Of a stretch of DNA of 51,963 nucleotides, positions 2,735 through 20,494 are shown piece after piece. The stretch is taken from the IMG/VR virus record IMGVR_UViG_3300032770_000028, positions 1-51,963 of that record; one strand, 5' to 3'. A program made the position numbers and the translations under genes. The notes beneath the pieces were generated by a model that searched no databases, was not told the DNA's origin, and worked only from the letters and a program-made list of their open reading frames with translations. This DNA comes from a virus. Positions within the stretch are counted from its first letter, which is position 1, and each line of letters starts with the position of its first letter.

Positions 2735-3061
2735 ATGTCGGGAGTGAAGGACTCGTTTGACCCTACCTGGCCCATGCCCAAGCCCGATGACTCTGTGGCG
2801 GGCAGTTACGAAGCACCGGAACGCGCCGGCCCGGACAGCAAGCGCCCCTCAGTCATTCAGTACGCAGGTGACGGCACCGCCGAGTTGCGCAGCGCTGCCG
2901 AAACCAAGCACAGCGCGGAGATCCCCCGTGGCGAAGGCGCGACCAAGCGCTTCCCGAAAGGCGTTGACCAGTTCGACCCCATCAACCTCCGTATCCCGAA
3001 ACAGGACAACGCGCTCAAGCACGGCAAATACGACACGGGCGAAGGCGAAGACAGCGCCTGA
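2735..3061 (+). CDS. Hypothetical protein in the terL-portal interval
   Basis: A protein of 108 residues from ATG 2735 (MSGVKDSFDP). An upstream in-frame TTG at 2678 would add 19 residues but lacks a ribosome site. It is hydrophilic and rich in Pro, Lys and Asp, without membrane segments or Cys, probably largely disordered. No family recognised. Confidence 0.55.
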   Translation: MSGVKDSFDPTWPMPKPDDSVAGSYEAPERAGPDSKRPSVIQYAGDGTAELRSAAETKHSAEIPRGEGATKRFPKGVDQFDPINLRIPKQDNALKHGKYDTGEGEDSA

Positions 3062-3136
3062 CGACCCCATTTCGGTGGCGTGGCATATCTGGACGGCGCC
3101 GCCGCATCCGCTCTGCAAGCACAAGGTGGGCTAAAC

Positions 3137-3328
3137 ATGGCCATTGAGCATCCGAAGCCGAAGCCGCTGCCCGTCAAGAACACCGTGCCCGAATACGGGC
3201 AGGCTCGTTACAAGGAGCCGCGCCAGCGCCAGTTCGGCGTGCTGGGCTTCGATGACCGGCCCGAGGCGCTGATTGGCGGCACCGTCATCCACAAGGGCGA
3301 GAACTTCGAGGACTCGAAAGATGAGTGA
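3137..3328 (+). CDS. Hypothetical small protein
   Basis: A protein of 63 residues starting MAIEHPKPKPLPVKN. An in-frame GTG at 3080 would give 82 residues, but ATG 3137 is preferred because the basic Pro/Lys N-terminus resembles its neighbours. It overlaps the next gene by eight bases. Function unknown. Confidence 0.55.
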   Translation: MAIEHPKPKPLPVKNTVPEYGQARYKEPRQRQFGVLGFDDRPEALIGGTVIHKGENFEDSKDE

Positions 3329-14701: not shown

Positions 14702-14883
14702 GCGATACCTACTTCTGGACAGTCACGGGCTCGCCCACGACACTCGGGCTTCAGCAGGCGCCGCTGCGGCCGTTCGACATCGGCGACGGCTCGCTGCGGT
14801 TCAATCTGATGTGCAACGACGACGCGCCCGTGTTTCTGAATGACGCGTGGCCGTTTACTATCGTGGATGAGGGAGTCGTCTGA
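14698..14883 (+). CDS. Small protein between two tail spikes
   Basis: A protein of 61 residues starting at GTG 14698 in a GTGA overlap with the previous spike and ending in a TGATG overlap with the next. Its layout FWTVTGSPTTLGLQQAPLRP and LRFNLMCNDDAP suggests a compact beta protein. It could be a linker or chaperone for one of the spikes; no family recognised. Confidence 0.6.
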   Translation: MSDTYFWTVTGSPTTLGLQQAPLRPFDIGDGSLRFNLMCNDDAPVFLNDAWPFTIVDEGVV

Positions 14884-16451
14884 TGTGGGCGAGTGGCGAT
14901 CCACTGACTAGCACGAACCTGAACAGCAAAGGCGGCGCCTTCACCGCCTATAACGTGCAGGAGTTCGGCGCCGTAGGAACGGCTGACGACACGGCGGTGG
15001 TGCAGCAGGCGTTTGCCCAAGTGGGGAACGGCGGGGGCGAACTTATCATCCCTGCGCGCCTCACGATGACGCTCACCTCGACCGTGACTTATACGCCGGG
15101 CATCGTGGTTCGGGGCCAGAGCGGGCCGGCGAACGTGGGCAAGTTCGTCTGGGGCGGGGCCGCTGGCGGCACGATGTTCACGTCGGCCACGCCGGCCGCG
15201 TCGAACGAATACACGCGCTGGAAGGCGCTAGAGATTGACGGCGCCAGCCTCGCCAGCTTCGGGCTCGACTTCTACCGCGTGTCGCACGGGTTGGCCGAAG
15301 ATTGTTACATCCACAATGCCTGGGCCAACGTGCGCCTGTACCGGGACGCGGCGTCGGGCTACGGCTGCTACTTCAACAACATCGTCCGGGGCAAGATCGC
15401 TAATGGCACCTACGGCGTGCTGCTGGATGGCGCGGGTGTGTCGCACACGAACGGCCCGAACTCCAATTGGCTCCAGTTCATCGACTTCGAGAACAACGCT
15501 ACGAGCGTGTATCAGAAGTACGGGAACGAGCTGTTCATTCTGGGCTGCACGAGCGAGCATCCGCTGAATGCCCATTTCGAGTTGGCGGGTTGGGGCGCGC
15601 ACATCATCGGCTGCCGCCTGGAAGACAGTAGCGCGTCGGCCACCGTGCCGGGCATTCTGATTGACAGTACGGCCCAAGGGGTGGTGGAGGTCGGGAACTA
15701 CTGGGCCAACTTCACCAATGACCCGGTGGTGGACAACCAGGCGAGTGGCGACCACATCTTGCGGTTCTCGACCTACGGCTCGGGCGTGAACGGGGGCCAG
15801 CAGGGCTATCAGGCCGTCAACATCCTCGGCGCGCTGGCGTTGTACGGGCGTACGGGGTACGGGTTGCTGGATTTGAACGGGGGGGACCGGAATGCAACTA
15901 CGCCGGGCACCATCCGCATCAATCGCAGTTCCACCTGTTCCGGCGACCTGATGGATTTCTACAATGGGTCCAGCGTGCAGGTGGCGTCGGTGGATAGCAC
16001 GGGGCTGATTACGGGCACGGCGCTGTCAGGCACGACCGCGACAGGTTACACGGTTAATGCGACTAACAACCTGCGAGTAGGAACAAGCGGCGCGACTGGT
16101 GTGCGGGCAGTGATTCAGTCGCAGGATTCTTACAACAAGGACTTGGTCTGGGCGAGCGGCGGCGACCGTTGGGTGGGTCGGGTCGTTGGACAAAACGTCA
16201 CGCCGGGCGCCGGGGACAACTTTGCTCTGTCAGCGCGTACCGATGATGGCACATTGATTGATACTCCATTGTCGGTCGTCCGGGCTTCGGGCGGCACGCT
16301 CACGATTGCCCGCCCGCTGGTCTATTCGTGGCTCAGCACGCCGCTCGGGACGGACAGCGCCGTGACGGGGCAGATGGCCTACGACGCCAACTACATCTAC
16401 ATTGCCACGAGTGCCAATTCCTGGCGGCGGGCGACGCTGGCGAAGTTCTAA
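14883..16451 (+). CDS. Tail spike with right-handed beta-helix
   Basis: A protein of 522 residues. The N-terminal GDPLTSTNLNSK matches the anchor of spike 13424. QEFGAVGTADDTAVVQQAF (about residues 26-44) is the pectate-lyase-3 opening motif. A repetitive beta-helix follows (WKALEIDGASLASFGLDFYR, EDCYIHNAWANVRLYRD, GVLLDG). The C-terminus PLGTDSAVTGQMAYDANYIY is typical of phage fibre tips. It likely binds or cleaves host surface polysaccharide, a role fitting the glycan enzymes elsewhere in the genome. Confidence 0.8.
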   Translation: MWASGDPLTSTNLNSKGGAFTAYNVQEFGAVGTADDTAVVQQAFAQVGNGGGELIIPARLTMTLTSTVTYTPGIVVRGQSGPANVGKFVWGGAAGGTMFTSATPAASNEYTRWKALEIDGASLASFGLDFYRVSHGLAEDCYIHNAWANVRLYRDAASGYGCYFNNIVRGKIANGTYGVLLDGAGVSHTNGPNSNWLQFIDFENNATSVYQKYGNELFILGCTSEHPLNAHFELAGWGAHIIGCRLEDSSASATVPGILIDSTAQGVVEVGNYWANFTNDPVVDNQASGDHILRFSTYGSGVNGGQQGYQAVNILGALALYGRTGYGLLDLNGGDRNATTPGTIRINRSSTCSGDLMDFYNGSSVQVASVDSTGLITGTALSGTTATGYTVNATNNLRVGTSGATGVRAVIQSQDSYNKDLVWASGGDRWVGRVVGQNVTPGAGDNFALSARTDDGTLIDTPLSVVRASGGTLTIARPLVYSWLSTPLGTDSAVTGQMAYDANYIYIATSANSWRRATLAKF

Positions 16452-16460
16452 ACTCCGCTC

Positions 16461-16489
16461 TTGACAGCGTCTCGACAGTAACGTAATAT
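16461..16489 (+). promoter_or_regulatory. Strong sigma70-like promoter
   Basis: TTGACA at 16461-16466, a 17-base spacer, and TAATAT at 16484-16489, in the only real gap between spike 14883 and the HNH gene at 16520. The -35 box is perfect and the -10 box is one base off. It would start a transcript near 16496, covering the HNH gene and the glycosyltransferase cassette. Confidence 0.75.
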
Positions 16490-16519: not shown

Positions 16520-16975
16520 TTGCAATACTGTAAGGCTGGCCATCCGTTAGATAGCGTTAACGCAAGGGTGCGTTTTCGTCCCGGTCCCCGCAGCGAGGGG
16601 CGCCAGGTCGAATGTCGTGTATGCCAGCGCCTTCGTATGCGTGAATGGAAGCGCAAAAACCCCGAGCGGGCTCGCGCTCAGCAGCGGAAAAGTGCTGCTC
16701 GGCGCAAGGACAAGCACCGCGACTACTCTATCCGTATGCTTTATGGTATAGGCACAGCAGAGTACGATAAGTTGCTTGGGGAACAGGGTGGCGTTTGCGC
16801 CATTTGTCGCCGCAAGAACATTGGCCAACGACGCTTGGGTGTAGATCACAACCACGAAACCAAGAAGATTCGTGGCATTCTTTGCGACCGATGTAATCGG
16901 GGACTTGGGTTCTTTGGGGATCGCGAGGATTTGGTGGCCACGGCCTTGGAGTATCTACGTCAAAAGAACCGCTAG
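16520..16975 (+). CDS. HNH endonuclease, endonuclease VII-like
   Basis: A protein of 151 residues. An N-terminal Cys/His finger (CKAGHPLD...CRVCQ) and a basic helix (REWKRKNPERARAQQRKSAA) precede the catalytic segment CAICRRK...LGVDHNHETKKIRGILCDRCN. The start is TTG 16520; the only nearby ATG (16488) runs into a stop. It has its own promoter and a lower GC content than its neighbours, as expected for a mobile gene. Its end lies on the N-terminal coding stretch of the next gene. Confidence 0.85.
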   Translation: MQYCKAGHPLDSVNARVRFRPGPRSEGRQVECRVCQRLRMREWKRKNPERARAQQRKSAARRKDKHRDYSIRMLYGIGTAEYDKLLGEQGGVCAICRRKNIGQRRLGVDHNHETKKIRGILCDRCNRGLGFFGDREDLVATALEYLRQKNR

Positions 16976-17052
16976 TCTCGGCGATTCTCACAAGGAACGA
17001 AGCGGGGAGATACCTTGGAGAAATTCTCGCTCGATGCAGCGAGTTTGGGAAG

Positions 17053-18840
17053 GTGGTTATCCTTGACGACGCCAGCACGGATGCAACGGAGGAGCTGTGT
17101 CGAAGCAACCCGAACGTGGTTGCTTACCGGAAACGCGAGGCGCAGGCTTCCGCCTGGGGCGCCGAATCGAGTGCCAGACGAGAACTCTGGGACTTGGCCG
17201 CCGAGTACGGAGAGTGGGTGCTGTTCTGCGATGCCGACCAGTTGCTCGTCGGCGACCCCCGACCGCTGCTGCAAACCGTAGAAGCCAACGCCATTGCCTA
17301 CATACTCTACGATTGTTGGCACGAGCGCACGCTCTATCGCGACGATGGCTTTTGGCGAGCCCATCTGCATCCTCGTGCCTGGCTGGTCAATCCTCATCGA
17401 GTACCAAGCGACTGGACGCCTCGATGGTCAGACCGTGGTTGTCATTGCGGTCACCTGCCTGAAAACTTCCCCGCGCGGACTCTGGTGGCGCCTCCGGCAA
17501 CGCATTATTGGTTGCATCTCGGCTACGTCAAAGAAGCTGATCGCGCGGCTAAGCTCGAACGATACCACGCTGTCGGAGGGCAATTGACGGATTTCGAGAA
17601 AGCGCACGCCGAGAGCATTGGGGACAAGCACCCGACGCTCCGGCGCCTGCCAACAGAACAGCCGATCCGCGTGCTTGTCGGCGCCCCCACGCGCAAGCGA
17701 GCGGACGTCCTCAAGGCGCACTTGGACTCGCTGGCGTGGCAGGAACTCCCGCCCCGCGTGGAAGTGGAATACTGCTTTATCAACGATTATCCCGAACCTG
17801 ATGTGGGTGAGGTGATTCTGCAACACTTTGTTGCTGATCGTAAGGGTGTGTTACTGACGCCACAAACCAGGCCGCCAGGGAATGACTTCTCCGACAGCGA
17901 CCCCGTTACCCACCGCTGGACCCAGTCGGCGATGGGCCGCGTGGGGGCGATGCGGCAGCAAATCCTGGCCTACGGCGCCTCGCAGGGCTTCGATTACGTG
18001 TGGATGGTGGATACGGACCTCATCTGCGACAAAACGGTGCTAGCGAGCCTCCTGGCGTGCCAGAAGGCCATCGTGAGCGCCGTATACTGGACGCGCTGGG
18101 AGCGCGTGGGCTTGCACGCGGGGCCGCAGGTGTGGCTGGCGCCCGTGTACGAACTGGGCAAGGGGCCGTTCTACCCCGAGTCGGAGTTTCGCAAGCAGTT
18201 GGCAGACCGCGAGTTAGTGCCAGTCGGCGGGCTGGGCGCCTGTACCTTGATTCGGATGGACGCGATCCGCAAGGGCGTGGGCTACACGCGCTGCCCGAAT
18301 TTCCCCACGGGAGGGCTCTGGGATGGCGAGGACCGACACTTCTGCGAGTGGGCCAAACGTCTCCACGTCGAACTCTGGGCCGACGCGTGGCCCGACATCT
18401 TCCACGTCTACCACACCGATGATGTGGCCCGCGTACCGCTTTGGCAAGAGCGGCTGGGAACCGTTCATCCCGCCAAGCCTCGACCTGGCGACCTTATCAG
18501 CCTCCGCCTGCTCGCCGTCGAGAAGCCCATCGGTTACGAGTTCGTACGCACGCTGCTCAGCGGCGATGCGCTCCTACCTGAGCTTGCACAGGCCGTCTCC
18601 GAGATGACGCGAGGCGAGACGCGGATCGTGCGCGTCCATTTCCCCAAGAGTTGGCCGCTGGAGGAAGTGCAGGGCAAGACGCGGCTCATCGAAGTGATGC
18701 TCATTGACTGCAAGCCGCAGGGCGTGGCGCCCGTGCTGGAAGACGAGTTCCACGTGAGCGCGGCCGGGTTTCGCAAGGACGCGATGGACATGACGCAGCA
18801 GCAGTGCGACTTGCTGGGGAGTGAACATGCCAATGTCTAA
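17053..18840 (+). CDS. Two-domain family 2 glycosyltransferase, start displaced
   Basis: A protein of 595 residues from GTG 17053. The first GT-A domain (residues 1-190) has DDASTD at its very start and FCDADQLLVGD; the second (about 205-430) has VLVGAPTRKRADVLKAHL and the metal-binding VDTDLI. The frame stays open upstream, and 16978-17052 encodes SAILTRNEAGRYL and KVVIL, the normal opening of such enzymes. GTG 17053 therefore gives a truncated domain. No ATG, GTG or TTG exists in frame between the HNH stop and 17053. It transfers a sugar in surface or DNA glycan modification; the substrate is unknown. Confidence 0.8.
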   Translation: MVILDDASTDATEELCRSNPNVVAYRKREAQASAWGAESSARRELWDLAAEYGEWVLFCDADQLLVGDPRPLLQTVEANAIAYILYDCWHERTLYRDDGFWRAHLHPRAWLVNPHRVPSDWTPRWSDRGCHCGHLPENFPARTLVAPPATHYWLHLGYVKEADRAAKLERYHAVGGQLTDFEKAHAESIGDKHPTLRRLPTEQPIRVLVGAPTRKRADVLKAHLDSLAWQELPPRVEVEYCFINDYPEPDVGEVILQHFVADRKGVLLTPQTRPPGNDFSDSDPVTHRWTQSAMGRVGAMRQQILAYGASQGFDYVWMVDTDLICDKTVLASLLACQKAIVSAVYWTRWERVGLHAGPQVWLAPVYELGKGPFYPESEFRKQLADRELVPVGGLGACTLIRMDAIRKGVGYTRCPNFPTGGLWDGEDRHFCEWAKRLHVELWADAWPDIFHVYHTDDVARVPLWQERLGTVHPAKPRPGDLISLRLLAVEKPIGYEFVRTLLSGDALLPELAQAVSEMTRGETRIVRVHFPKSWPLEEVQGKTRLIEVMLIDCKPQGVAPVLEDEFHVSAAGFRKDAMDMTQQQCDLLGSEHANV

Positions 18841-19033
18841 GGAAAAGTGTCTTGAGGACGCGCTACGCTATGCCGTGCTCATCATTCAGAGTTACGAGTC
18901 TGATATACGTAATTCGGATTGGGTGGGCATAGACCTTGTCAAGCGCGGGTTCTGCCAAGGCGATATTTATCGGGGCGCGCTCAAAATGATTGAGCGCCTG
19001 TCTGAACCAGACAGGGTCACATTGCATGGCTGA
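18827..19033 (+). CDS. Hypothetical 68-residue protein
   Basis: It starts at ATG 18827, six bases after GGGGAG; ATG 18833 is an alternative. It overlaps the glycosyltransferase end and the next gene's start. The product is helical and charged (CLEDALRYAVLIIQSYESDI, LVKRGFCQGDIYRGALKMIE). No family recognised. Codon use is lower in GC than in the flanks. Confidence 0.6.
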   Translation: MPMSKEKCLEDALRYAVLIIQSYESDIRNSDWVGIDLVKRGFCQGDIYRGALKMIERLSEPDRVTLHG

Positions 19034-19859: not shown

Positions 19860-20494
19860 AATCTTGCTCTCAGTGTTTCCGCGAACTTGATGAGAGTTGC
19901 TTTCCTCGTATCAAGGCACGGGGCAACCGCGCCGGTTCGTGGTGCAGAGAGTGTTGCGCCAAAAAGAGTGGCGAGTCTTACCGTGCCCACAAAGAGCGTG
20001 CGGCAAAATGGAGCAGAGAATATCGGAAAACGCATGCCGCAGAGATTCGCGAGCGCAATAAACGGTACTACGCTGAAGGGGCAGCAGAACAAATAGCCAA
20101 AGCAGTTGCATGGGCGCGTGCCCACCCAGAACGTCGGCGTGCCACGCGTGCCAAGTGGGCCGCTGCGCATCCCGATCTGGACAAGAAGGCCAAGGTCGAG
20201 TGGAAGCGTCGAAATCCCGACAAGTTAGCCGAGGAGTCAGCACGTCGTCGGGCCAGGAAGCTTAACGCTCCGATCAATGATTTGAGTGGGCGGGTGTGGC
20301 CACTAGTGCAAGCGGTGTTCCGCAACCGTTGCGTATACTGTGGCGAGACGAAGAAACTGACACGCGACCATGTTCAGGCGCTGACCAGGGGCGGCGATCA
20401 CTCGTTGCACAACATTGCCCCGGCGTGCCAATCGTGTAATTCGCGGAAGCACAATGGCCCCGCGCCGACTTTCTGGTGGAAGCGGCGTGTCTAG
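19856..20494 (+). CDS. HNH endonuclease with repeated basic N-terminus
   Basis: A protein of 212 residues from GTG 19856 (GTGA overlap). An N-terminal zinc finger (CSQCFRELDESCFPR...CRECC) leads into basic repeats of the type W-x-x-x-HPE/NPD-(R/K). The C-terminal HNH module is CVYCGETKKLTRDHVQALTR, then HNIAPACQSCNSRKHN. It resembles the HNH at 28456 and differs from the endonuclease VII-like genes. Probably a homing gene. Confidence 0.85.
   Translation: MKSCSQCFRELDESCFPRIKARGNRAGSWCRECCAKKSGESYRAHKERAAKWSREYRKTHAAEIRERNKRYYAEGAAEQIAKAVAWARAHPERRRATRAKWAAAHPDLDKKAKVEWKRRNPDKLAEESARRRARKLNAPINDLSGRVWPLVQAVFRNRCVYCGETKKLTRDHVQALTRGGDHSLHNIAPACQSCNSRKHNGPAPTFWWKRRV

Follow-up and report, generated by a model that had tools for sequence, protein, structure and literature searches.

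An Endonuclease VII-family homing-type gene overlaps the start of a viral glycosyltransferase gene that lacks a standard start codon

Where does a gene start when a mobile endonuclease gene ends on top of its first codons and leaves no ATG, GTG, or TTG there? The question is raised by a virus record of 51,963 bases with a G+C content of 64%, analyzed here in full and referred to as the window, in which an HNH endonuclease gene is followed by the open frame of a large glycosyltransferase (GT). An initial annotation proposed that the HNH insertion had removed the start of the GT. To locate this start, we compared the GT with relatives and surveyed the genes that follow related HNH genes. The mapped features between 14883 and 18840 are all on the plus strand.

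The HNH gene and its site of insertion

The HNH gene spans positions 16520 to 16975, and residues 71 to 147 of its 151-residue product match PF02945 (E=1e-21); the corresponding PHROG annotation is endonuclease VII. The Endonuclease VII/DHHRN motif, C-x(2-4)-C ... DHxH ... R ... CxxCN, is present as CAIC, DHNH, RG, and CDRCN, and these columns are invariant in alignment A2. The gene has a GC content of 56% against 64% for the window, which places it at the 1.8th percentile. Motif, profile, and composition together place it among the free-standing, homing-type endonuclease genes, in the Endonuclease VII family. The conserved part of this family closes with Tyr-Leu, encoded at 16952 to 16957, which is invariant in alignment A2 and invariant or nearly invariant in alignment A4.

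Upstream of the HNH gene lies a gene for a tail/fibre-like protein (14883 to 16451), an open reading frame (ORF) whose C-terminal end weakly matches a tail PHROG. IMG/VR protein searches returned four relatives of the GT (L001, L002, L021, and L115) that are 51 to 53% identical to it over the full length, and in L001 and L002 the GT is preceded by a similarly placed gene of similar style. Searches for an HNH gene gave no match in the records of L001, L002, and L021, and in L115 the GT is not preceded by one. The HNH gene is thus present in the window and absent at the GT in 4 of 4 relatives, all of them only about 51 to 53% identical, and none of these GT relatives shares the insertion. Measured against these four genomes, an Endonuclease VII-family homing-type gene has been inserted between the GT leader and the GT coding region. 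The HNH ORF fills nearly the whole insert. A group I intron that would join an upstream ATG to the GT was rejected because the window gave no Rfam hit at gathering thresholds. A short DNA pattern across the junction that was retrieved from viral_contigs and genome_contigs was attributed to chance; the matching sequences had no similarity to the window by blastn.

A promoter-like element, TTGACA-N17-TAATAT (16461 to 16489), which agrees with the consensus at 10 of 12 positions and was recognized by that match only, is located between the tail/fibre-like gene and the HNH gene; a search of the remainder of the window found no second copy, so that the element is single. By eye, TTGACA/TTGACG boxes were also seen in relatives, ahead of the GT and after the gene that precedes it (L001, position 3956; L115, position 2775). 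Given these boxes, the HNH gene may be using the former promoter of the GT.

Further downstream, a 70-amino-acid ORF without PHROG match (18821 to 19033) overlaps the GT stop and separates the GT from a second GT gene; in L002 no such ORF intervenes, and one GT gene directly overlaps the other. The second GT is followed by a second HNH gene (PF01844; 19856 to 20494), whose 3' end overlaps the canonical GTG start of its neighbor at 20487 by 8 nt. The gene that starts there is small and Cys rich and has a homologue in L001.

Position of the glycosyltransferase start

The GT frame is open from 16897 to 18840, and the preceding in-frame stop is TAA 16894. Since the open frame thus reaches back 79 nt from the end of the HNH stop, its start must be sought within the HNH 3' end as well. 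The initial annotation had looked solely past that stop and had overlooked both an ACG at 16957 and a Shine-Dalgarno (SD)-like GGAG before it. Its reading of the junction was otherwise accurate: the HNH gene ends with TAG (16973 to 16975), the GT frame runs through as ...TSKEPLVSAILTRNEAGRYL... with SAILTRNEAGRYL from 16978, and no ATG, GTG, or TTG occurs in frame between that stop and GTG 17053. The same holds for the frame from 16897 onward.

The GT product matches PF13704 and PF00535 above the cutoff, and among PDB sequences it matched SunS and GmaR. The motifs of GT family 2 (GT-A), NE, DDxSTD, and DxD, are present as SAILTRNE, DDASTD, and DAD. In an AlphaFold2 model computed from a four-sequence alignment (mean pLDDT of 64, but 83 to 92 over the first 60 residues), strand 1 is predicted at residues 4 to 12 and strand 2 at residues 32 to 37. 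GTG 17053 to 17055, the first canonical in-frame start, corresponds to residue 33. As the initial annotation anticipated, a protein begun there would lack the first strand; in the model it would begin within the second, having lost strand 1, helix 1, and the beginning of strand 2. A second GT-like domain at approximately 17659 to 18081 (profile positions 235 to 375) matches procollagen galactosyltransferase 1 with an E value of about 1e-4, and Foldseek related it to multi-domain GTs at low TM-scores.

When the N termini of the HNH-less homologues were aligned, all four relatives were found to start just before strand 1, with a canonical start 1 to 4 codons ahead of it: ATG-E-P-F in L001, GTG-S-R-V-P in L002, GTG-K-L-P in L021, and GTG-R-F in L115. 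The closest annotated phage GT, that of GX15bay (28% identity over a third of the protein), likewise starts just before strand 1. A homologue starting at the equivalent of GTG 17053 was looked for among the four relatives and not found. The window codons that match the relatives' starts are ACG-TCA-AAA-GAA-CCG (16957 to 16971), and ACG 16957 to 16959 aligns with the GTG start of L002. Since the relatives start just before strand 1, the normal start in the window falls in the last HNH codons, and strand 1 has not been removed. The proposal that the insertion took away the start of the protein is therefore not supported: all residues of strand 1 are present, and the HNH gene overlaps the first codons only. 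By alignment, the protein lacks no region; it is the gene that lacks a standard start codon, and the overlap is the usual layout of this HNH family. A gene caller limited to ATG, GTG, and TTG would place the GT start at GTG 17053, 32 residues too late.

This layout emerged when 144 distinct HNH loci were surveyed; 101 of them had a downstream plus-strand ORF under a simple longest-ORF rule. The canonical start of the neighbor overlapped the HNH 3' end in 53 of the 101, mostly 1 to 20 nt past the conserved Tyr-Leu, and lay within 75 nt after it in another 29. The remaining 19 had no canonical start in that range, and on inspection most of these were separate genes past a gap. Other apparent cases were discarded: L036 has an antisense-looking frame, and for L152 (a wrong-frame pick) and L078 a canonical start lies in a different frame or farther upstream. 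The L078 ORF (2808 to 4589) is terminase-like, presumably resembling the T7 terminase, and its ATG apparently lies about 50 nt inside the upstream HNH gene. At locus L085 the overlap is as long as in the window and the two frames stand in the same relation, but the start is an ATG. By inspection, only in the window and L073 did the neighbor frame run open through the HNH 3' end and yet offer no canonical start. The L073 neighbor (2811 to 3182) has a possible CTG start behind GGAG; no HNH-less relative of it was found, the sole other copy being identical and also carrying the HNH gene. Overlap between an HNH gene and its neighbor is thus ordinary, whereas the absence of a canonical codon is not.

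Translation or silencing of the glycosyltransferase

The explanation that we prefer, though tentatively, is that the GT coding region came through the insertion intact but its start was crippled, with weak translation from ACG coupled to that of the HNH gene. The 3' end of the endonuclease gene covers the first codons of its neighbor, by 19 nt if the start is 16957, and the codon at the start position of the window is ACG. Full-length GT would then be made at a low level from ACG 16957 behind GGAG, and ribosomes finishing the HNH gene would help initiation, yielding fMet-SKEPLVSAIL. The GGAG (16948 to 16951), set within the HNH codons for L-E of ALEYL, sits 5 nt upstream of the ACG; other genes in the window have GGAG 5 to 10 nt before their starts. 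In a simple count across the window, near-cognate codons preceded by GGAG at 5 to 9 nt made up about 0.16% of positions, or about 0.7% over four candidate codons; this expectation is suggestive rather than proof, as the feature was noticed before counting. Two observations count against the ACG: it begins at -1 relative to Tyr-Leu, and most starts in the survey are at +1 or later; and in E. coli reporters, ACG reached only 0.1 to 1.5% of the value for ATG (PMC6925171). Because the codon at the start position is such a very weak bacterial start, the GT is probably produced only seldom, if ever, and from its place in the alignment ACG 16957 is most likely a weak or mutated start. That a large GT is truly initiated at an HNH-coupled ACG, the need of the HNH protein for Arg after Tyr-Leu setting the start codon of its neighbor, we consider doubtful.

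Silencing of the GT, in which the insertion or a later mutation abolished the start, no useful GT is made, and the long open frame belongs to a pseudogene of recent origin, is rather unlikely in our estimate, but the missing canonical start and the weakness of ACG speak for it. So does codon composition: the third-position GC of the first 32 GT codons is 0.53 versus 0.75, the lowest among the genes tested, of which four others have values of 0.56 to 0.59. This N-terminal stretch shows no higher conservation than the remainder, and together the two measures leave room for its decay. Against silencing, more than 620 codons are free of stops and frameshifts, the catalytic motifs DDxSTD and DAD are kept, and the identity of the window GT to its relatives is about that among the relatives themselves, a picture that a very recent loss would fit too. 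By profile matches, comparison with the relatives, and predicted strand 1, the coding region of the two-domain GT is undamaged from strand 1 to the stop (16957 to 18840).

The true genome would have an ordinary overlapping start if a consensus or assembly error or a mixed population had affected the start codon, or if an indel of one base were involved; we regard this as quite unlikely. The window is the metagenomic consensus of a virus record, ACG is one transition away from ATG, and the window and L073 stand alone in the survey. In the HNH frame, the ACG lies in the codon CGT for Arg, and an ATG would give Cys instead. Of 95 loci, 9 have Arg directly after Tyr-Leu and none has Cys; since Arg occurs at this place and Cys never does, the ACG suits the HNH frame, which argues weakly against a base error.

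A -1 frameshift, programmed or incidental, at A_AAG (16963 to 16966) would fuse HNH and GT (...EYLRQK-EPLVSAIL...), and we find this highly improbable. The CAAAAG at which the initial annotation suggested a slip does exist, read in the zero frame as CAA AAG, and IS1222 is known to use A_AAG for -1 shifting at a low level (PMC5009743). A GGAG stands about 11 nt before the site, and the GT frame is -1 relative to the HNH frame. On the other side, no downstream structure stands out, folding being unexceptional (z values of -1.3 and +0.3), the heptamer U_CAA_AAG is absent from those named as highly shift-prone, and most neighbors of the HNH relatives have a start of their own. Least probable is a GT shorter than in its relatives, begun either at ATT 16984 to 16986, a table-11 start 8 nt past the HNH stop, or at the canonical GTG 17053, which would keep the second GT-like domain whole, because neither has a good SD sequence upstream, ATT would remove most of strand 1 and GTG still more, and the four relatives begin ahead of that strand.

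Relation to known mobile endonuclease genes

Free-standing homing genes are usually regarded as near-neutral passengers between phage genes. The HNH gene of the window appears to have left the coding part of an accessory gene untouched, with the start codon of that gene lost or crippled. Loss or crippling of a start codon is a simple route by which mobile genes could tune or switch off a neighbor.

Three known systems can be compared with this locus. (i) The free-standing homing endonuclease genes of T-even phages (seg and mob) are intergenic and share a coding overlap of 11 to 24 bp with a neighbor (PMC2988022). The window resembles them in having an endonuclease gene between phage genes that overlaps a neighbor. 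The overlaps described for seg and mob, however, are between the beginning of the endonuclease gene and the gene upstream of it (PMC2988022), whereas in the window the end of the endonuclease gene lies over the start of the gene downstream, which moreover has no standard start codon. (ii) An Endo VII motif at the C terminus marks the endonuclease clade rather than the resolvase clade (PMC6083498). With its C-terminal Endo VII motif and PF02945 match, the HNH protein resembles F-CphI and the DHHRN homing endonucleases, a likeness by motif and profile that makes homing putative. (iii) In insertions of the ShiLan type, the HNH gene is out of frame and overlaps the host gene (PMC11855218), and the HNH gene of the window is similarly read in another frame and overlaps its host gene. 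In ShiLan, the host frame is open through the insert, whereas the GT frame is closed within the HNH gene, at TAA 16894 and earlier, so that read-through of this type was rejected and only the start is affected. Set beside these systems, the finding is genuine but modest, an oddity that falls within a familiar kind of mobile gene.
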